A stretch of DNA of 64,000 bases from Gilliamella sp. ESL0441 (GTDB lineage: Bacteria; Pseudomonadota; Gammaproteobacteria; Enterobacterales; Orbaceae): NCBI RefSeq assembly GCF_019469185.1, contig NZ_CP048264.1, positions 248,001 to 312,000 of the forward strand. The letters run 5' to 3'. Numbering within the stretch: the first letter of the stretch is position 1; each line of letters begins with the position of its first letter. Shown piece by piece: positions 29,964 through 38,905 of this stretch. A program made the translations under genes and the position numbers. The notes under the pieces are model-generated. The model was not told the DNA's origin. It saw only the letters and a list, made by a program, of their open reading frames with translations, and did not search any database.

Positions 29964-30713
29964 TTAAAATTTATATGAAACACCCATATAAATTGAGGTT
30001 ATTGTACTATTACTAACCATTGTGCTATCAGCTGCATCACCTGTTAATTTATCAATGTGAACTCCACCAAATGTAGCAATATGATCGGTAAATGCATATT
30101 GTGCACCTATTTCTAAATATGGAGTAAATGAATCATCAGCATTGAAATATCTTAATCCAGAGCGAGAAGATTCTTTATGTGAGATACCATAATAGTAATC
30201 GTTATGTTTATTGTTAGCCCAATTAATACCAATAGTTGGAACAATAATTAAATTACCCTGCACAATAGGTAAACTGTAATCAGCGTTCACTAATAAACTA
30301 TTACTTTCATTTAGCACATCTGTACCAATACTACTCGAAAAACTTCCCCAATTAGTATCAATAGAGTATTCAATTTCAGCTAATAATGTTGAATGACGGC
30401 TATCGAGTCGTTTTAATTGGTGATTATTTGAGTCGTGTGGTTTAAATTCGTTAGATAGGTAACGAGCACCAATAGACAAACTTTGATTATCATGGTTATA
30501 CGCATAAAAACCTGCCGATAAATCATCGATAAAAAATGAACCATTATCAAAATCAATATGAGGTATTGGGTAATAATTAGCGCTATAACTTTTATAAGGA
30601 GAGTTTGACCAACCAGCTCCGATACCCAGTGACGTAGGATCAGATAAGGCACTATTGCTATATCCTAAAGCAGAAATTATAAGTATCGAAATTAAACCAT
30701 ACATCTTTTTCAT
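29964..30713 (-). CDS. MipA/OmpV-family outer membrane protein
   Basis: The 249-residue protein has a signal peptide ending near SNSALS and a body of amphipathic beta strands finishing in a C-terminal aromatic residue (MGVSYKF), as required for BAM-dependent insertion. The start LGIGAGWSNSPYKSYSANYYPIPHI-type pattern and length match MipA/OmpV proteins, which include the MltA-interacting scaffold MipA. Which member it is cannot be told. It is a single gene with its promoter shared divergently with the aminotransferase operon. Confidence 0.82.
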   Translation of the reverse strand: MKKMYGLISILIISALGYSNSALSDPTSLGIGAGWSNSPYKSYSANYYPIPHIDFDNGSFFIDDLSAGFYAYNHDNQSLSIGARYLSNEFKPHDSNNHQLKRLDSRHSTLLAEIEYSIDTNWGSFSSSIGTDVLNESNSLLVNADYSLPIVQGNLIIVPTIGINWANNKHNDYYYGISHKESSRSGLRYFNADDSFTPYLEIGAQYAFTDHIATFGGVHIDKLTGDAADSTMVSNSTITSIYMGVSYKF

Positions 30714-30883
30714 TTCTTGATGTCCATTTAGTAATTATGTCATCAGTTGACTAAATATTATTATTTCATTAAACAGAGCTATTGTCACACAATCTATACA
30801 TTAATTGTACATTGTAACAAACAATTTTCTAGAATAATAATGCCATATTTTATCGTGTTTGAATATGGATTAGTGAGATAATT

Positions 30884-32293
30884 ATGAGTAAACCAACTTT
30901 AGAAATGATTAATAGTCGTCCTGACGATGCAACATTATTAGCTGATGAAGCTAAATATTGCTCATTTGGTGATACTGTTCATTATGTTGAACCACCGAAG
31001 ATTTTTGATGGTTGCGAAGGTAGCTACATGTATGATAAAGAAGGTAAAGCTTTCCTTGATTTACAAATGTGGTATTCAGCATGTAATTTTGGCTATGCCA
31101 ATGAGCGATTAAACAACGTACTCAAAAAGCAAATTGATACTTTACCACAATGTGCTAGCCAATATTTGCATCCAACCAAAATTGAATTAGCTAAAACCAT
31201 TGCACAAGGTATGGAACAGCGTTTTGGTTACCAAGGACGAGTTCATTTTAACGTTGGTGGATCACAATGTATTGAAGATTCTTTAAAAGTAGTACGTAAT
31301 GCTACTGGTGGTAAGTCATTAATGTTTGCGTTCCAAGGTGGTTATCATGGTCGTACACTTGGCGCATCTTCAATTACTTCTAGTTATCGTTATCGTCGTC
31401 GTTATGGTCATTTCGGTGATCGTGCTATGTTTGTTCCTTTTCCATATCCGTTCCGTCGTCCAAAAGGCATGACCGCAGAGGAGTATGGTGAACACTTAGT
31501 TGCTGAGTTTGCACGTCTATTTGAAACTGAATACCACGGTGTATGGGATCCAAAAGTAGGACAAGCAGAATATGCTGCATTTTATGCAGAACCATTACAA
31601 GCAACGGGTGGTTATATTGTTCCACCTCGTAACTACTTTAAAGGTTTGAAAAAAGTATTAGATCAATATGGAATTTTATTGGTTGTTGATGAAATCCAAA
31701 TGGGCTTTTATCGTACTGGTAAACTTTGGTCAATTGAGCATTTTGATGTTAAACCTGATGTGGTTGTTTTTGCCAAAGCGTTAACCAATGGTCTTAATCC
31801 ACTAGGTGGTTTATGGGCACGTGAAGAGTTGATTAATCCTGAGGTGTTCCCTGTCGGCTCAACGCATTCAACGTTTGCTTCTAATCCATTAGGTACAGCA
31901 GTTGGTCTTGAAGTGTTAAAAATGACGTCAGAAACTGATTACGAAACCATGGTTATGGAAAGCGGTGCTTACTTCCTTGAAGGTTTAAAAACACTTGAGA
32001 AGAAACATAAAGAGATTGGTGAAGTTGATGGTTTAGGTCTTGCGCTTCGTGCCGAAATCTGTACCGAAGATGGTTTTACCGCTAACAAAGCGTTAGTAGA
32101 TAAAATGGTGGATATCGGTATGTCAGGTGATCTTGATTGGAAAGGTAATAAAATGGGCTTGGTGCTTGATATCGGTGGTTATTATAAAAACGTGATCACT
32201 TTTGCTCCATCGCTACATATTACTCGTCAAGAGATTGATCAAGGTATCGAACTACTTGATCAGTTAATTACCCGAGCGAAAAAAGAACTTTAA
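30884..32293 (+). CDS. class III PLP-dependent aminotransferase, unknown substrate
   Basis: The 469-residue fold-type I aminotransferase has GSQCIEDSLKVVRNATGG, the PLP-ring Asp269 in VVDEIQMGFYRTG and the Schiff-base Lys298 in FAKALTNGLNPLGG. An insertion (about 171-230) containing RRRYGHFGDRAMFVPFPYPF sets it apart from ornithine and GABA aminotransferases I know. The substrate is probably a diamine, omega-amino acid or basic amino acid, by family. It is the first gene of an operon with a FemAB-like transferase and an arginase-fold protein. Confidence 0.85.
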   Translation: MSKPTLEMINSRPDDATLLADEAKYCSFGDTVHYVEPPKIFDGCEGSYMYDKEGKAFLDLQMWYSACNFGYANERLNNVLKKQIDTLPQCASQYLHPTKIELAKTIAQGMEQRFGYQGRVHFNVGGSQCIEDSLKVVRNATGGKSLMFAFQGGYHGRTLGASSITSSYRYRRRYGHFGDRAMFVPFPYPFRRPKGMTAEEYGEHLVAEFARLFETEYHGVWDPKVGQAEYAAFYAEPLQATGGYIVPPRNYFKGLKKVLDQYGILLVVDEIQMGFYRTGKLWSIEHFDVKPDVVVFAKALTNGLNPLGGLWAREELINPEVFPVGSTHSTFASNPLGTAVGLEVLKMTSETDYETMVMESGAYFLEGLKTLEKKHKEIGEVDGLGLALRAEICTEDGFTANKALVDKMVDIGMSGDLDWKGNKMGLVLDIGGYYKNVITFAPSLHITRQEIDQGIELLDQLITRAKKEL

Positions 32294-32311
32294 TTGTTAA
32301 TTTCTAACCTT

Positions 32312-32333
32312 CCCGTCAACTCATGTTGGCGGG
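32312..32333 (+). other. intercistronic stem-loop between aminotransferase and acyltransferase genes
   Basis: CCCGTCAAC (32312-32320) pairs with GTTGGCGGG (32325-32333), with one T-G wobble, around a TCAT loop. There is no T run after it, so it is more likely a processing/stability element or a leaky terminator that lowers downstream expression. The upstream in-frame ATG (32323) lies inside the loop. Confidence 0.7.
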
Positions 32334-32340
32334 ACTGCAC

Positions 32341-33417
32341 ATGATAGCCAATCGTTTAAATATATTTATGAAATACATCAATCAGCTAGAACCAAATGAA
32401 TTAGTCGACAATTTTTTGACTTATCCACCGCAAGATTTTATGGCGTGGCTGAGTGAAAATGGTGTGCCTGCTTTTGCTGCAAAGTTTGATTTATTAACTA
32501 CTGCTGATGATGATTTTAAGCATAAGATCCAAAAACTCCCTTTTTTTAAAAAATGGCGACATTGGTTACAGCCGAAAACTTGTTTTATAGGAACAACCGT
32601 TTCTGAATATGCTCTATTGACCGATCAGGTAGAAGCAGAACAGTTAGCGGATAACATTAAAACCGCATATACAAAAAAGTATCCTTTTGTTATTGTCAAA
32701 GATTTGCCTTTATCCTCGCCTTTACTTAGCGAACAAGACAATCATTATTCGAACCAGCTTATTTCGGCATTAAAAACAAGAGGATTTATTGAAGTTGAAG
32801 GACAAGCATTAGCTTGGTTACCGATTGATTTTAGTGATTTAAATGATGTGTTTTCACGATTTTCGTCCAGCCGTCGTAAGAATTTTAGACGTAAATTAAA
32901 AGCTCGCGAAAAATTAGAGATTAAGGTTTTGCATAGTGGTGATGAGTGCTTTTTTGATGATGAGGTGTTAGATCATTATTACCAACTTTACCTCAATGTG
33001 TATCAACAGAGTGAGGTTCATTTTGATTTACTGACCAAACCGTTTTTTATTCAATTGCTGCAAAGTAAATCTATCCAAGCACGCATTTTTACCTATTATC
33101 ACGATAATGAACTAATTGGCTACAATATCTGCTTTGTCGTAAATAATATGTTGGTCGATAAATATATTGGCTTGGTTTATCCTCAAGCTCGTGACTTTAA
33201 TCTTTATTTTGTTAGTTGGTTTTTCAATCTGGAGTATGCCATTGAGCAAGGATTTAGTCACTATATTGCGGGTTGGACAGATCCTGAGGTTAAACGATCG
33301 TTAGGTGCGCAATTTACTTTAACCAAACATTTGGTTTACATCCGTAACCCATTATTAAGATTTATTTTAAGCAAATTGATTGGTCATTTTGAAAGTGACA
33401 AGGAGAAAGTAGCATGA
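32341..33417 (+). CDS. FemAB/GNAT-like acyl- or aminoacyltransferase, uncharacterised
   Basis: The product is about 358 residues. The C-terminal half has the FemAB-like/GNAT layout: SSSRRKNFRRKLKAREKL, then VLDHYYQLYLNVYQQSEVHF and ARIFTYYHDNELIGYNICFVVNNMLVDKYIGL, ending in YIAGWTDPEVKRSLGAQ. Such proteins transfer acyl or aminoacyl groups to amines. The N-terminal part is unassigned. The start is uncertain: ATGs at 32323, 32341 and 32368 are in frame. I use 32341 because a GGCGGGA precedes it. It overlaps the arginase-like gene by four bases (ATGA). Confidence 0.75.
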   Translation: MIANRLNIFMKYINQLEPNELVDNFLTYPPQDFMAWLSENGVPAFAAKFDLLTTADDDFKHKIQKLPFFKKWRHWLQPKTCFIGTTVSEYALLTDQVEAEQLADNIKTAYTKKYPFVIVKDLPLSSPLLSEQDNHYSNQLISALKTRGFIEVEGQALAWLPIDFSDLNDVFSRFSSSRRKNFRRKLKAREKLEIKVLHSGDECFFDDEVLDHYYQLYLNVYQQSEVHFDLLTKPFFIQLLQSKSIQARIFTYYHDNELIGYNICFVVNNMLVDKYIGLVYPQARDFNLYFVSWFFNLEYAIEQGFSHYIAGWTDPEVKRSLGAQFTLTKHLVYIRNPLLRFILSKLIGHFESDKEKVA

Positions 33418-34286
33418 CATATCCTATTATACTCAATTTCGATCAGAGTGTAGGCGAGATTAATAATGCTAAAATAATTGATGTAACTCAGTGGCAAGAT
33501 ACGATTCGCTTTGGTTGCTCTGAAAAAAAATTCTGCCAATTTAAAGCTGAATTACAGCAATCCTTACCTGAACATTTTGGTACAGTCTTTATGGGAAGTG
33601 GTGATTATCACCATATTTCATTGCTGCTTATTGAACGGTTGGCTAAACACTATTCCGCCGATAATCCAATCCAAGTAATTGTGTTTGATAATCATCCTGA
33701 TAATATGCGCTATTTATTTGGTATTCATTGTGGTTCATGGGTTAGCTATGTGGCAAGTTTACCTTTTGTCAGTCATGTTCATGTGTTAGGTATCACATCT
33801 CATGATATTGGACTTTCCCATTTTTGGGAAAATAGATGGAAACCCCTTTTTCAGAAAAAACTGACGTATTGGAGTTTGGATGTCAATGTATCGTGGGCAA
33901 AAAAAATAGGTTTGGGGCAAGCTTTTCGCCATTTTTCTACGCCAGATGATCTGATTGCTAGTTTCTTATCCGAACAATACCATAGCGCCGAACCTGTGTA
34001 TTTATCGATAGATAAAGATGTATTAAGTGAAAAGGTCATTCACACTAATTGGGATCAAGGTCAATTACAAACTTATCATCTGCTTGATACCATTACTTCG
34101 TTAAAGCAACGTATTGTGGCAAGTGATATCACTGGTGAATTGTCAATATGGCAACCCTCTAATTGGTTCAAACGGTTGCTGAGTTCATTAGATAAACAAC
34201 CCACTATTGAGGCAGATAACTTACACAATTGGCAACAAGCACAACATCAGCTTAATTTAACATTATTAAAAGCTTTATCAGTATAA
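33414..34286 (+). CDS. arginase/ureohydrolase-fold protein, unknown substrate
   Basis: The 290-residue protein keeps all the metal-ligand positions of the ureohydrolase fold. These are a His in GSGDYHH (61-67), Asp92/His94/Asp96 in DNHPD (the DAHxD motif), and Asp200/Asp202 in SIDKD (the SxDxD motif). The rest of the sequence is divergent from arginase, agmatinase and formimidoylglutamase, and the GGDHS motif is altered. It probably binds two Mn2+ ions and hydrolyses an amidino or similar C-N bond. It is translationally coupled (ATGA) to the FemAB-like gene. Confidence 0.8.
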   Translation: MTYPIILNFDQSVGEINNAKIIDVTQWQDTIRFGCSEKKFCQFKAELQQSLPEHFGTVFMGSGDYHHISLLLIERLAKHYSADNPIQVIVFDNHPDNMRYLFGIHCGSWVSYVASLPFVSHVHVLGITSHDIGLSHFWENRWKPLFQKKLTYWSLDVNVSWAKKIGLGQAFRHFSTPDDLIASFLSEQYHSAEPVYLSIDKDVLSEKVIHTNWDQGQLQTYHLLDTITSLKQRIVASDITGELSIWQPSNWFKRLLSSLDKQPTIEADNLHNWQQAQHQLNLTLLKALSV

Positions 34287-34301
34287 TGACAAGGTTAGAA
34301 G

Positions 34302-34333
34302 CTGTAGCTGATTATTTAAGAAATCAACTACAG
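34302..34333 (+). terminator. hairpin between the two convergent operons
   Basis: CTGTAGCTGATT (34302-34313) pairs with AATCAACTACAG (34322-34333) with a single mismatch. It lies 16 bases after one operon and 14 before the other. No strong T run is present, so a bidirectional terminator is likely but not certain. Confidence 0.6.
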
Positions 34334-34346
34334 TTTGAATTAACTT

Positions 34347-34745
34347 TTATTGATGATTATCAGCGTTTTGCTTAGCCAATTGGCTTTCCGCTAAAGCTAA
34401 AAACAAGATACCTGATACAATAAGAATGGTGCCAATTAACTTATATAATGTAATTGGTTCATGAAACAGCCATATCGAAGCTATCATGACCGTGACAACT
34501 TCAAAGTGAGAGGCAGCAAAAGCTGGCCCAACAGGGGCTTTTTTTAATAAAGTCATCCAAGTAAAAAAAGTTAAAATATAACCAGCGATAGAGATGTATA
34601 TCCATGGATTAGTAAATACCCTGACTAACCAATCAACACTCATTGCTAGTGGTTCGGCATGGATGGCAGTTAATTTAAAGCTACATTGTGCAATAGTATC
34701 GAAAAAAAGTAATACCGTAAAACCGATTAAATAGAATCTAGCCAT
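34347..34745 (-). CDS. SMR-like small membrane transporter subunit (pair member 2)
   Basis: The 132-residue protein has four hydrophobic helices with SMR/EamA character. Helix 1 contains FFDTIAQCSFK, aligning with LAEVIGTTLMK of EmrE so that the essential Glu14 is replaced by Asp. It begins one base after the stop of its paralogue, the arrangement of obligate heterodimeric SMR pumps such as MdtIJ, which exports spermidine. The C-terminus is polar. The substrate is unknown but could be the product of this locus. Confidence 0.8.
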   Translation of the reverse strand: MARFYLIGFTVLLFFDTIAQCSFKLTAIHAEPLAMSVDWLVRVFTNPWIYISIAGYILTFFTWMTLLKKAPVGPAFAASHFEVVTVMIASIWLFHEPITLYKLIGTILIVSGILFLALAESQLAKQNADNHQ

Positions 34746-34746
34746 A

Positions 34747-35103
34747 TTAAGACATCCCTACAAAGATTACGCCAGCAGTAATGAGTAACATACCAATGAG
34801 TCGGTAAACAGTTAATAGTTCTTTGAAAAGCACTCGACCAACTAACATAATGGTGATGATATTAAATGATGCCAGCAACACTCCTTGAGAAAGCGGAACC
34901 AATGTTAAAAATGCTAACCATAATAAAAATTCTGCAACGTAAGAAATTATACCAATCCAGATCCAATGATTTTTAGCCAAATCAACCCAGTAATACCAGC
35001 CATCTCGATTATTAGGGGCGGTTGCTGCGTATTTAAAAGCAACTTGCCCTAATGTATCAAAACAGATATTACTAACCCAAAGTATAATCACTAATAGCGA
35101 CAT
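34747..35103 (-). CDS. SMR-like small membrane transporter subunit (pair member 1)
   Basis: The 118-residue four-helix protein has CFDTLGQVAFK in helix 1, again with Asp at the EmrE Glu14 position, and a final SMR-type helix (YRLIGMLLITAGVIFVG). Its ATG overlaps the TAA of the alpha/beta hydrolase gene by one base, and its own stop is one base before the second SMR-like gene. The two together likely form a dual-topology heterodimer that moves a cationic or amine substrate with protons. Confidence 0.8.
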   Translation of the reverse strand: MSLLVIILWVSNICFDTLGQVAFKYAATAPNNRDGWYYWVDLAKNHWIWIGIISYVAEFLLWLAFLTLVPLSQGVLLASFNIITIMLVGRVLFKELLTVYRLIGMLLITAGVIFVGMS

Positions 35104-35936
35104 TATGAATTGGTTCCTTCTGCTATTTCATTGAAGAATGATGCGCACTCTTTAATGACTTCACGACGTTGGCTATCAATTGTAATTAAATGATAACTAT
35201 CATTAAGTACCACTAATTTTTTTGATCCTGAAACGTGTTTCTCAACTAATTTAGCGTTGGTTTCAATATCAGCTATGTCATCATGACCGGAATGCATAAT
35301 CAAACACGGTGAAGTCACTTTAGGTAGTGCTTGGCGAACGTTTTTAGCTAACAATTGCATTTCGGCCAGTGCAGGAAAAGGATTTCCAGCAAGTCCGGCA
35401 GATGCCGCATCACCACTCAGCATACTTTCCGATACAACGGCTCGGATCCGCTCATCTTTAAGCCCATATGGTGGCTTTTCGATGAAAGAAACCTTTTGGA
35501 AAAGCCCCAGTTTTTTCAAATACACCAGCAAGAAAAAGAATTTTTTAGCCCAAAATGGCATGCTCCAACCATCATAATAAAAAGTAGGCGCTAAAACACC
35601 CACACCTTTAATTTGCTCTGGTCTATCTGATGCTAGTTTAAGCGCAAGGAGTGCGCCCATGGATAAACCGGCAACAAAAACATTATCAACATGTTTTGCT
35701 AAAAAATCAGCACCATCTTTTACACTTTGATACCAATCTTGCCAAGTGGTTTTACAAAGATCCTCTTCAGTACCACAGTGTCCCGCTAATTGTATAGCAT
35801 ACACGGTAAATCCGGCTTTATGTAAACCATTAGCTAAAATACGCATTTCGTTGGGTGTACCTGTTAAGCCATGTATCAAAAGTACACCATTTTTGTTACC
35901 CGGTAAAAAATAAGATAAATCTTCAATTGTACTCAT
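35103..35936 (-). CDS. alpha/beta-hydrolase (carboxylesterase/monoacylglycerol lipase-like)
   Basis: The 277-residue hydrolase has the oxyanion HGLTGTP (about 22-28), nucleophile Ser92 in GLSMG, an acid in SGHDDIADI and a catalytic His in NDSYHLI. The AGHCGTEEDL stretch and a cap region rich in aromatic residues match Est30/MGL-type carboxylesterases. It could remove an acyl or ester group from the product of this locus. It follows the HAD gene by 12 bases and overlaps the next gene by one. Confidence 0.85.
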   Translation of the reverse strand: MSTIEDLSYFLPGNKNGVLLIHGLTGTPNEMRILANGLHKAGFTVYAIQLAGHCGTEEDLCKTTWQDWYQSVKDGADFLAKHVDNVFVAGLSMGALLALKLASDRPEQIKGVGVLAPTFYYDGWSMPFWAKKFFFLLVYLKKLGLFQKVSFIEKPPYGLKDERIRAVVSESMLSGDAASAGLAGNPFPALAEMQLLAKNVRQALPKVTSPCLIMHSGHDDIADIETNAKLVEKHVSGSKKLVVLNDSYHLITIDSQRREVIKECASFFNEIAEGTNS

Positions 35937-35948
35937 TATTATTCCTAA

Positions 35949-36677
35949 TTATTTTACCATCATGACAGGGATAAGAGCATCTTGAGTCTTTTTCAGTGCT
36001 GTCGTGACATCGGCAAAACTTTGAATAGCACAGTGTTCAATCTTGTTGGTTTCACAATATTGAATCAATTTGTCTTTTGCAAATACAAAATCCACATTAT
36101 GAGATACACAATAATCGGATGTGCCATCACCTACATACAGTATTTGTGGAAAGAATTGTTGTTTTTTAACATGATTACATTTGCAATTTCCACTTTGTTT
36201 AATACAGTTTTTATTCGCATAAGGAAATTCAAGACGCCAACTACGTCCATTATCATGCATTAATTTATTGGCATATATCGGGATATGTGTTATACCGTGT
36301 CGTTTTAAAACAAATTGAATTGCGTAATCTAACCCATCACTCACAATATGAACTGGGATATTATTCTGTTCAGTATAATCAATGAATGATTTAAACGTTG
36401 AATCAATTTCGATTTGTGATAAAACGTGATTGAGTTCATCTAAACTGGCATCCATTAAGGCAATTTGTTTACTCATGCACTCTTGGGAGCCAATTTTACC
36501 GTTAACCCATAACTCTTCAAGCTCATCACAACCATCTTGACCAAAATGACTCAGCAATGTATCTGTCACATCTTTGACACTTATGGTGCCATCGAAGTCA
36601 CACAAAACAATAGGAGTTTGATGTTGCGTATAAGATGGTGTATATAGATGACTAGTAATTGATGAAAAAGTATTCAT
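35949..36677 (-). CDS. HAD-superfamily phosphatase (MtnX/PSP-like)
   Basis: The 242-residue protein has the HAD signature DFDGT (Asp27, Asp29), SDGLDYAIQFVLKRHGI and GDGTSDYCV, like MtnX and phosphoserine-phosphatase-like HAD-IB enzymes. A CIKQSGNCKCNHVKK insert holds three cysteines. It is the first gene of the minus-strand operon. Its substrate is unknown; it would dephosphorylate an intermediate of the local pathway or, less likely, serve methionine salvage (no mtn neighbours are seen). Confidence 0.83.
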   Translation of the reverse strand: MNTFSSITSHLYTPSYTQHQTPIVLCDFDGTISVKDVTDTLLSHFGQDGCDELEELWVNGKIGSQECMSKQIALMDASLDELNHVLSQIEIDSTFKSFIDYTEQNNIPVHIVSDGLDYAIQFVLKRHGITHIPIYANKLMHDNGRSWRLEFPYANKNCIKQSGNCKCNHVKKQQFFPQILYVGDGTSDYCVSHNVDFVFAKDKLIQYCETNKIEHCAIQSFADVTTALKKTQDALIPVMMVK

Positions 36678-36765
36678 ATTTGAAATAAAAATAGTCTATT
36701 TATATATATTGGCGCAAATTTTCTCACAGAGTCGCTTTGAACATTGTAGGCTCTTTGTATATATT

Positions 36766-36795
36766 TTGTAACGAAGTTAAAATTGTCTGTATAAT
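36766..36795 (+). promoter_or_regulatory. predicted promoter of the rstAB-like operon
   Basis: TTGTAA (36766-36771) and a perfect TATAAT (36790-36795), 18 bases apart, precede the response-regulator start by about 42 bases. Confidence 0.65.
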
Positions 36796-36836: not shown

Positions 36837-37565
36837 ATGAGTGAACGTATTTTAATCATTGAAGATGATCAAAGGTTAGCTAATTTAATAAAAGTTTATC
36901 TGGTTCGCCAGGGATATCTTGTTGATTGGCATAATAGTGGTGAAGGTGCAGAAGAAAAAATTCAAGAAATAAATCCCGATTTGGTTATTTTAGATGTGAT
37001 GCTTCCCGAAAAATCTGGTTTTGATATCTGTCGAGATATACGGACATGGTTTACAAACTATATTCTTATCATGACGGCGAGTGAAGATAATATTGACGAA
37101 ATTGTCGGTTTGGAATTGGGAGCAGATGACTATCTGGCAAAACCAGTCGAGCCAAGGTTATTATTGGCACGCATTCGAGCTTTATTAAGACGAAAGCAAA
37201 TTGAATCCGATAAAGAAGTAAATAAAGATCCCGTCACGGCAACGAATAATAAAACGTTGATTTTTGATAATCTGATTATCGATGATGAAAATCGAAAAGT
37301 ATTACTCGAAGGTCAAGAAATCGATCTCACCACAGCAGAGTTCGATCTACTTTGGTTGTTGGCAAATAATGCAGGTAAAATTTTATCTCGTGATGATATT
37401 TTTTCTCAAGTTCGTGGTATAGATTTTGATGGAACGGATCGTTCTATCGATGCTCGTATTTCTCGATTACGACGCAAGTTACTTGATGATCCTGATAACC
37501 CTTCCCGTATTAAAACGGTTCGAGGGAAAGGTTATCTATTTATGAGAGAAGGGGATAATCATTGA
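36837..37565 (+). CDS. rstA: RstA-like OmpR-family response regulator
   Basis: The 242-residue regulator has a receiver domain with acidic residues EDD (9-11), phospho-acceptor Asp53 in VILDVMLP and Lys102 in LAKPVEP. A winged-helix DNA-binding domain follows, with RGIDFDGTDRSIDARISRLRRKL and TVRGKGYLF. That RG-x3-DG-x-DRS pattern matches RstA rather than OmpR or PhoP. It overlaps the sensor gene by four bases. The neighbouring small-molecule locus may be a target, which is only inference. Confidence 0.87.
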   Translation: MSERILIIEDDQRLANLIKVYLVRQGYLVDWHNSGEGAEEKIQEINPDLVILDVMLPEKSGFDICRDIRTWFTNYILIMTASEDNIDEIVGLELGADDYLAKPVEPRLLLARIRALLRRKQIESDKEVNKDPVTATNNKTLIFDNLIIDDENRKVLLEGQEIDLTTAEFDLLWLLANNAGKILSRDDIFSQVRGIDFDGTDRSIDARISRLRRKLLDDPDNPSRIKTVRGKGYLFMREGDNH

Positions 37566-38905
37566 GACAATTATTAGCAAAACCGCTGTTTTTTAATCGT
37601 CGGATTATTTTTTATCTGGTTATCTTACTTTCACTACAATGTATTATTGCCTATGGTGCATTACTCGTTTTTGATTCTTTGCCTTCTTCATTAACGGATA
37701 TTCCTGATGACCACATTGTCTTTCGTGAATCACAACGAGGTACGGTTAATCTGATTCGAATGCAAATTAATGAGAATAAAGATCGTCCTCTGCAAGAAGT
37801 GGTTGATGAACTGCAACCCTATTTTGGGTATCCGATTGAAGTTTTACCGAGTCATACTTCGTTACCCCATTCCATCAATAAAGAGTTAGCAGAACTTGGA
37901 TTTGCCTATGATGGTGACAAAGAAGTGGTCTATATTGATTTAAAAGAGGGGCATCTTCTTCAGTTAGGCCCTATTATGATGCGGGATATTCTAGAATCAA
38001 ACACGATGTCGTTAAGTGTTTTTCTCGTTATTTGGGCGCTTTTTAGTGCAATTGTCTTTTTTATTTTAATCTATTTTGCGTTTAGTGCTGTTTGGAAGGA
38101 TTTGGTTAGCATTAGACAGACAGCCGAACAGCTTGGTCAAGGAAACCTTAAAGCGCGCACTGAAAATGTTAAAGGCTGGTTATTTAAACCGTTAGCAAAT
38201 GTGTTAAATAATATGGGAACACACATTGAGCATTTAGTTAGCACTAATCAAACCATTTCGCATGCAATGGCGCATGAACTTCGTACGCCACTGGCTCGTA
38301 TGCGATTTGAGCTCAGTATGCTTGAAGAATGTGATGATGTACAAGAAAAGTTATTGCTGCAAAAAGGAATGAGCGATGATATTAATGAACTTGAAACACT
38401 CATTAATGCAAGTTTAAGTTACTTTAAAATGCAGCAAAGTAATATTGAGTTAAATTTAACGTCGGTATCACTCAAGCAGTGGGCGGAAAAAGTTTGTCAA
38501 TCACTCGAATTATTCAAACCTAAAGGATTTGAATTAGTTTGTCACAGTCAAGACGTAAAAGCGCTTATTGATACTAATCTGGTTGAAACCATTGTTAAGA
38601 ATTTATTACTTAATGCATTTAAATATGCAACGCATAAAGCGGTTTTAAATATTACAAAACAAAACAATCGAGTTATTATAGAGATTGATGACGATGGTCC
38701 CGGTATCCCGTTTGATGCACGTGAAAAAATTTTTATGCCCTTTGCAAGGCTTGATACCAGTCGAACTCGTTCAACAGGTGGATATGGTCTTGGATTAGCT
38801 TATGTCAAATTAATGGCAGAGTTTCATAATGGGAAAGCATTTGTTGTCACTAGCCCTTTAGGCGGTGCAAGATTTGTCGTTTCAATAAAGTCTGGTGAAG
38901 AATAA
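37562..38905 (+). CDS. rstB: RstB-like sensor histidine kinase
   Basis: The 447-residue sensor has two membrane helices (about 15-37 and 145-172) flanking a periplasmic sensor of about 100 residues, then HAMP. HisKA has the H-box SHAMAHELRTPLARMRFE. The ATPase has NLLLNAFKYA, DDGPGIP and GGYGLGLAY. It starts at TTG within the TTGA overlap with rstA, behind GAAGGGG. The signal is unknown. Confidence 0.88.
   Translation: MRQLLAKPLFFNRRIIFYLVILLSLQCIIAYGALLVFDSLPSSLTDIPDDHIVFRESQRGTVNLIRMQINENKDRPLQEVVDELQPYFGYPIEVLPSHTSLPHSINKELAELGFAYDGDKEVVYIDLKEGHLLQLGPIMMRDILESNTMSLSVFLVIWALFSAIVFFILIYFAFSAVWKDLVSIRQTAEQLGQGNLKARTENVKGWLFKPLANVLNNMGTHIEHLVSTNQTISHAMAHELRTPLARMRFELSMLEECDDVQEKLLLQKGMSDDINELETLINASLSYFKMQQSNIELNLTSVSLKQWAEKVCQSLELFKPKGFELVCHSQDVKALIDTNLVETIVKNLLLNAFKYATHKAVLNITKQNNRVIIEIDDDGPGIPFDAREKIFMPFARLDTSRTRSTGGYGLGLAYVKLMAEFHNGKAFVVTSPLGGARFVVSIKSGEE

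Follow-up and report, generated by a model that had tools for sequence, protein, structure and literature searches.

The stretch of DNA considered here (the window, 64,000 nucleotides) spans bases 248001-312000 of the one-contig, 2.75-Mb genome of Gilliamella sp. ESL0441. At positions 30884-36677 it carries seven open reading frames (ORFs), designated A to G, that all appear intact and are organized as two convergent operons, A-C and G-D. Their identities were assigned by scanning Pfam and NCBIfam profiles and comparing the scores with curated cut-offs. An earlier interpretation made without database searches (the sequence-only reading) had placed the seven ORFs at the same positions and on the same strands. 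It had also described ATGA and TAATG couplings within the operons, and these are correct because the measured spacings (A/B 29, B/C -4, D/E 1, E/F -1 and F/G 12 nt) agree with them. A two-component system (36837-38905) is divergent from G. The MipA gene (29964-30713) and two promoter motifs are additions to the earlier description. The components of the locus, in window coordinates, are as follows.

30884-32293, + strand: A, class III aminotransferase dependent on pyridoxal phosphate (PLP), core gene (PF00202, 234.6 bits)
32323-33417, + strand: B, FemAB-like/GNAT N-acyl- or aminoacyl-transferase (PF04339, 53.3 bits, and PF13480, 36.6 bits, both above cut-off)
33414-34286, + strand: C, divergent ureohydrolase of the arginase/agmatinase fold (PF00491, 30.8 bits)
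34347-34745, - strand: D, SMR/EamA-like small carrier subunit (EamA, 39.6 bits; cut-off 28.2)
34747-35103, - strand: E, SMR/EamA-like partner subunit of D (EamA, 24.8 bits, below the cut-off of 28.2)
35103-35936, - strand: F, alpha/beta hydrolase (S33/lipase-like), core gene (PF12146, 90.6 bits)
35949-36677, - strand: G, MtnX-like HAD-IB phosphatase, core gene (TIGR01489, 117 bits; cut-off 81.55)
36837-37565, + strand: RstA-like response regulator (best NCBIfam model RstA, 251.5 bits; cut-off 330)
37562-38905, + strand: RstB-like sensor kinase (best NCBIfam model RstB, 232.7 bits; cut-off 478)
30784-30800, + strand: direct-repeat, operator-like motif 5' of A (intergenic genome match of GTYACANAWNNNATACA)
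36756-36772, - strand: direct-repeat, operator-like motif between G and rstA (second intergenic match of GTYACANAWNNNATACA)
29964-30713, - strand: MipA/OmpV-family outer-membrane barrel, a frequent neighbour (PF06629, 138.3 bits; cut-off 24.2)

Conservation and suggested transfer of the gene set

The 80 named loci compared here are the best of at least 576, and this set is therefore biased to close relatives; 15 loci from a sample of the phylum bring the total to 95. Genes A-G occur all together in 73 of the 95, from alpha-, beta- and gammaproteobacteria and including diverged and reshuffled versions. An eighth gene, H, encoding a DegT/DnrJ/EryC1-type aminotransferase, is also present in 48 of these 73 complete loci and in 62 of the 95 overall, and has no match in the Gilliamella genome studied here. 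B lies directly 5' of C in all 80 named loci. In 17 loci A is absent from the stretch examined; A was found elsewhere in 14 of the 15 genomes of this kind that were searched, the miss being a metagenome-assembled genome. G was found in the genomes of all 17, and in the 14 it lies within ~225 bases of A. The sequence-only reading had named failure of the genes to co-occur in other genera as grounds for giving up its proposal of a single process, and their co-occurrence across classes upholds that proposal, as do the gene overlaps and the promoter motif described below.

C is retained in 34 of 35 Gilliamella genomes, counting the one studied here (the miss is rated 67% complete), and was found in none of the 25 genomes searched that represent other genera in this family and order. 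Its alignment comprised 33 sequences, the window's own and 32 chosen among 120 listed homologues out of a total of 4,120. A sample of 398 genomes from the phylum was searched for C at E up to 1e-20 and for A at E up to 1e-150. C is present in 16 genomes, among them that of the window, and A in 25; all 16 genomes with C have A, compared with 9 of the other 382 (Fisher p 1.5e-22, a value computed on related genomes that are not independent). Eight of the nine genomes with A but without C keep G-A-F together, and one of these (L166) has D and E as well; three of the nine contigs are shorter than 8 kb, so that more genes may lie past their ends. G-A-F is for this reason called the innermost core, around which D-E is an export shell and B-C, with H where present, a tailoring shell. 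In the ninth genome an A-like gene of 53% identity, unaccompanied by G or F, neighbours a gene for a sulfotransferase (L173, 9303-11629), possibly another use of the same aminotransferase.

Gene overlaps, counted with start codons set by script, connect all the genes in one lineage or another: B-C in 67 loci, D-E in 53, E-F in 26, F-G in 9, D-H in 6, C-E in 5, A-F in 3, A-G in 3, B-F in 2 and A-B in 1. Stenotrophomonas carries the genes in the order F-E-D-H-G-A-B-C, all in a single direction. Five diverged loci, of version g61 (three genomes) and of version g133 from another class (two genomes), are reshuffled, and their C and B proteins are 26-31% and 25-28% identical. A remains 71-74% identical in these versions, and its best copy per locus reaches 74-94% identity in named loci of genera other than Gilliamella. 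One of the five (L150) begins at a contig end, and no B or D was seen there. These results provide good support for a real, conserved and probably co-regulated pathway.

Phylogeny suggests that the genes have moved horizontally. A tree of B and C with 30 rows (the window plus 29 selected loci) places Snodgrassella, a betaproteobacterium, within Orbaceae (supports 97/92, 99/95 and 90/83) and groups Bartonella with Oxalobacter, Wohlfahrtiimonas and Orbaceae (99/100); 16 rows have an atypical letter make-up, and branch positions need care. A 2022 study of Snodgrassella lists 25 genes common to all Snodgrassella and absent from the others compared (PMC9239279). Several lengths in its Table 2 equal those of one locus examined here (L051): ArgD 471 (A), SpeB 296 (C), EmrE 135/118 (D/E), esterase 273 (F) and MtnX 248 aa (G). 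An entry of 359 aa listed as unknown equals B of locus L056 in length and is perhaps B. These entries are probably the genes of the locus, matched by length and type rather than by locus tag. That study treats them singly, as drug exporters or amino-acid metabolism, and recognizes no unit. Searches of the literature outside subscription journals and preprints gave no description of the seven-gene set, in line with the sequence-only reading, whose author knew of no described pathway with such a set.

A common promoter motif and its likely regulator

Comparison of promoters by eye, with Gilliamella as the source, yielded a direct repeat, GTYACANA-N6-ACA, located ~100 bases 5' of A and of G. The strict form GTYACANAWNNNATACA has five matches in the genome; two are the promoters of A and G and three fall inside reading frames, and the reversed pattern has one match. 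With at most one mismatch allowed, the window contains four matches against 0.93 expected, a number reached by 1 of 100 shuffles. A looser form was counted within 250 bases 5' of A and of G, where 0.00-0.06 matches are expected per set. It precedes A and G in 15/15 and 17/17 cases in Gilliamella, in 2/2 and 2/2 in Orbus/ESL0727, in 1/1 and 1/1 in Frischella, and in 2/2 and 2/2 in Wohlfahrtiimonas. Bartonella has it 5' of G in 7/7 loci and 5' of A in 1/7. It is found 5' of G in all 29 named loci that bear RstAB, and in 0/9 Snodgrassella loci 5' of either A or G, where no RstAB was seen. Groups with RstAB hold 53 motif hits in ~587 kb, compared with 4 for the reversed pattern; groups without RstAB hold 0 in ~1,004 kb, many of these being GC-rich.

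The response regulator is best termed 'RstA-like', because its score falls below the curated RstA cut-off. Since the motif came from comparing promoters by eye, its tie to this protein is one of position and lineage only. The sequence-only reading had mentioned a two-component system next to the locus; the adjacency holds, and with a common motif before both operons the system seems to be no mere neighbour and looks dedicated to the locus. Other lineages carry other regulators: Stenotrophomonas has a PmrA-like regulator and kinase 5' of F (one protein scanned, 222.6 bits; cut-off 330), and an AtoC/NtrC-type regulator is found at the diverged locus L149 and at L167, a bare G-A-F locus. The known consensus of the E. 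coli RstA-box gave no clear sites, its best matches being 9 of 12 fixed bases in the two promoters and 10 elsewhere in the window. A standard sigma-54 -24/-12 pattern was looked for in seven loci (L147-L151, L137 and L139) and matched none of them.

Enzymes, carrier pair and a possible envelope link

The enzymes look active, because A, C, F and G retain catalytic-type motifs. Conservation was judged after short or stop-containing sequences were dropped, which left 75 of 78 sequences of A, 92 of 94 of B, 75 of 77 of G and all of those of C (95), D (88), E (89), F (87) and H (62), with one reference added to each set. In A (76 sequences, 75 loci and the window) the PLP-type Lys298 and R169-Y-R-R-R173 are invariant. 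A also carries an invariant basic patch, and has Thr439 at a site where three of the four displayed structural relatives that cover it carry Arg. It scores far below cut-off with gamma-aminobutyrate (GABA), ornithine and acetylornithine aminotransferase models among the 25 NCBIfam models shown of 69 matched (ArgD, 210.7 bits; cut-off 410). HGLTGTP and GLSMG are conserved in F (88 sequences) and HAD motifs in G (76 sequences), which reaches 105.3 bits with the MtnX equivalog TIGR03333 (cut-off 303.2). B has no homologue of solved structure by profile search, where a single match was at chance level (E 0.75). Neither A, B, C, F nor G has a PADLOC model match at E 0.001, and known anti-phage defence was rejected as an assignment. 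In one locus (L170, 7867-9480) the F frame stays open well past the hydrolase domain, with 538 aa between stop codons, and is possibly a fusion.

C shares the fold and metal-type motifs of the ureohydrolase superfamily. GSGD-HH, DNHPD and DKD are invariant in 96 sequences, and we take them to be equivalents of the arginase metal ligands. Unlike other members, C is at 10-19% identity to its structural matches and has an invariant NWDQG. In sequence it barely resembles arginases with solved structures (best profile E 0.004), and its fold is equally near arginases, agmatinases, a guanidinase and formimidoylglutamase (structural matches, VIA-align). The sequence-only reading had considered a modified polyamine as product; this breadth of matches does not support it, and no polyamine enzyme was seen in the gene sets. 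Its broader amine theme fares better, being supported by the class III aminotransferase, ureohydrolase fold, N-acyl/aminoacyl-type transferase and SMR-like pair, and the product is likely to be an exported amine.

Export, also part of that reading, is supported by the carrier pair. E adjoins D on the same strand in 86 of 95 loci, and an acidic-x7-Lys motif occurs within the first 45 residues of D (88/88) and E (89/89), with the spacing of E14/K22 in EmrE. SMR exporters such as EmrE, and the pairs MdtIJ and Gdx, likewise consist of small subunits with an acidic residue and a lysine at this spacing near the N-terminus. D and E differ from them in that D passes the EamA but not the SMR profile (PF00893, 22.6 bits; cut-off 23.7), while E passes neither and has no SMR match in the Pfam scan; the first loop also seems longer, to judge from the sequences. 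Their top NCBIfam score is with ArnF (37.2 and 27.7 bits), far below the cut-off of 99. A proton-coupled exporter of a cation is the favoured interpretation of the pair.

MipA-like genes occur in 36 of the 95 loci, as found with a search profile that included two diverged copies; all eight that were checked with Pfam match PF06629, as does the window's own. The gene adjoins A or G-A in Orbaceae, Wohlfahrtiimonas, Oxalobacter, Rhodanobacter/Dyella and the g61 version, and in L151 it is beside the regulator. In Pseudomonas aeruginosa, MipA and MipB are polymyxin co-sensors with ParRS (PMC10936184). There, as here, a gene for a MipA-family barrel is beside an operon under two-component control, whereas here biosynthetic genes predominate and the type of regulator varies with the lineage (RstAB-like, PmrA-like or AtoC/NtrC-like).

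The arn operon, for addition of 4-amino-4-deoxy-L-arabinose (L-Ara4N), is similar in having an aminotransferase (the locus, too, has one of DegT type in many lineages) and a small hetero-dimeric carrier pair. It differs in that the main aminotransferase of the locus is class III, a ureohydrolase, hydrolase, phosphatase and FemAB-like protein are added, and D/E carry an acidic residue. The ArnB model NF008658 gives one partial match in the genome (30.5 bits; cut-off 631), and 1 of 14 control genomes scores above the cut-off; PF01041 gives three partial hits of 22-37 bits, above its general cut-off of 19.8. Both systems also share two-component control (PmrAB/PhoPQ/ParRS for arn) and a link to the envelope, the arn side being described in part in PMC10936184.

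Proposed pathway and alternatives

We consider the locus to be a horizontally mobile, signal-controlled module for biosynthesis and export of an amine-bearing molecule, a reading to which we give a probability of about 0.5. The genes, their conserved motifs, their co-occurrence and the common promoter motif are computational results; from them we infer which reactions take place and in what sequence, which way transport runs and what the module is for, as follows. A would transaminate a carbonyl compound, probably one bearing a phosphate or bound to a carrier, G would take off the phosphate, and F would cleave an ester or thioester. C might then hydrolyse a guanidino- or amidine-type C-N bond, freeing an amine, and B would acylate or aminoacylate an amine. 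D/E, acting as a hetero-dimeric SMR-like antiporter, would carry the cationic product into the periplasm, and the MipA barrel, where present, may serve or sense it at the outer membrane. The RstAB-like system next to the locus is predicted to turn on both operons via the one motif. Protection of the envelope against cationic or acid stress is the likeliest purpose, a working idea for which the evidence is thin; it draws on the PmrA-like regulator of Stenotrophomonas and on the MipA neighbours, given the polymyxin co-sensing by MipA in P. aeruginosa.

Several observations weigh against parts of this proposal. The motif is absent 5' of A in 6 of 7 Bartonella loci, and 3 of 11 Bartonella motif matches fall elsewhere. 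No RstA/RstB match was seen in the stretches of nine Snodgrassella loci, Oxalobacter L108, L093 and nearly all Dyella loci, so RstAB is not obligatory; nor is MipA, because 59 of 95 loci, some of them incomplete, show none. Some G-A-F genomes have no C, and no B was seen nearby. A weak HMMER alignment of D with EmrE sets Glu31 of D, which is not conserved, rather than Asp16 opposite E14, and the equivalence of Asp16 with E14 derives from motif spacing alone.

Four other explanations were weighed. An amino-lipid set in the envelope is a doubtful alternative. A would aminate a beta-keto- or acyl-linked intermediate, as the aminotransferase (AMT) domains of iturin-type synthases do, with F as thioesterase or lipase, B as N-acyltransferase and D/E as flippase. 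The GNAT-like character of B, the lipase-like character of F and the ArnF scores of D and E, though far below cut-off, are consistent with this, as are Thr439 in place of Arg and the basic patch of A. A FabF-like beta-ketoacyl synthase is found directly 5' of G-A-F (L171, 11387-12826, by Pfam; homologues L169, L172 and L174) and is a hint of acyl chemistry; however, it is near housekeeping FabF (447 bits; cut-off 494) and was seen in a single genus, and the acidic-x7-Lys motif suggests cation/proton antiport instead of lipid-phosphate flipping. It is unlikely that the genes make a secreted natural product, amino-sugar/aminocyclitol-like or short and peptide-like, for use against competitors. 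Two types of aminotransferase, a phosphatase, a ureohydrolase and a FemAB-like transferase do resemble the tool kits for aminoglycosides and natural products dependent on aminoacyl-tRNA, and the patchy distribution (16/398) and apparent transfer would fit. But no enzyme that would form a scaffold was seen among the genes, the genome has no match to the DegT partner, the conservation of A is unusually high for an accessory metabolite, and the genus has retained C almost throughout.

Ordinary amino-acid salvage, combining an arginase, an ornithine/GABA-type aminotransferase and MtnX of methionine salvage, is less probable still. Generic annotations (ArgD, SpeB, MtnX) such as those in the table of PMC9239279 suggest it. 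Arginine or methionine salvage was nevertheless rejected, as A and G score below the family cut-offs and C has no close solved homologue, and a carrier pair and regulator do not fit. That the seven genes are unrelated neighbours is extremely improbable: pieces are split in some genomes, with G-A apart from B-C in most Dyella loci, but the 73 complete loci across classes, the overlaps, the A-C co-occurrence and the common motif effectively rule out a chance neighbourhood.

Returning to the module for an amine-bearing product, it is tentatively possible, though on balance doubtful, that it represents a new class of pathway, in which a mobile, two-component-controlled module displays a cationic aminolipid or amine in the envelope via an SMR-like hetero-dimer. 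This would be an arn-like defence built from unrelated enzymes and transferred among bee-gut symbionts (Gilliamella, Snodgrassella, Frischella and Bartonella). The full set of enzymes, carrier and regulator occurs in soil bacteria and opportunists as well as in core symbionts of the bee gut. If envelope modification is its role, it would offer an arn-independent route to tolerating cationic peptides; if the amine is secreted, it may shape bee-gut ecology. A likely regulator, its promoter motif and the innermost enzymes are now named, and product and purpose are therefore directly testable.

Some loci have additional features. A Rhodanobacter locus (L066, 2989-4386 and ~5701) contains two A-like stretches close together, the second of 51% identity. 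A DUF2147 domain (PF09917) is encoded just 3' of D in a diverged version (L151, 6152-7216), and an extra 543-aa ORF without a Pfam match lies between C and D in Orbaceae ESL0727 (L049, 11451-13082). Two near-identical stretches with large ORFs in one genome (L120 and L121; G000:C1:1977234 and 2716390) appear haemagglutinin-like by eye.

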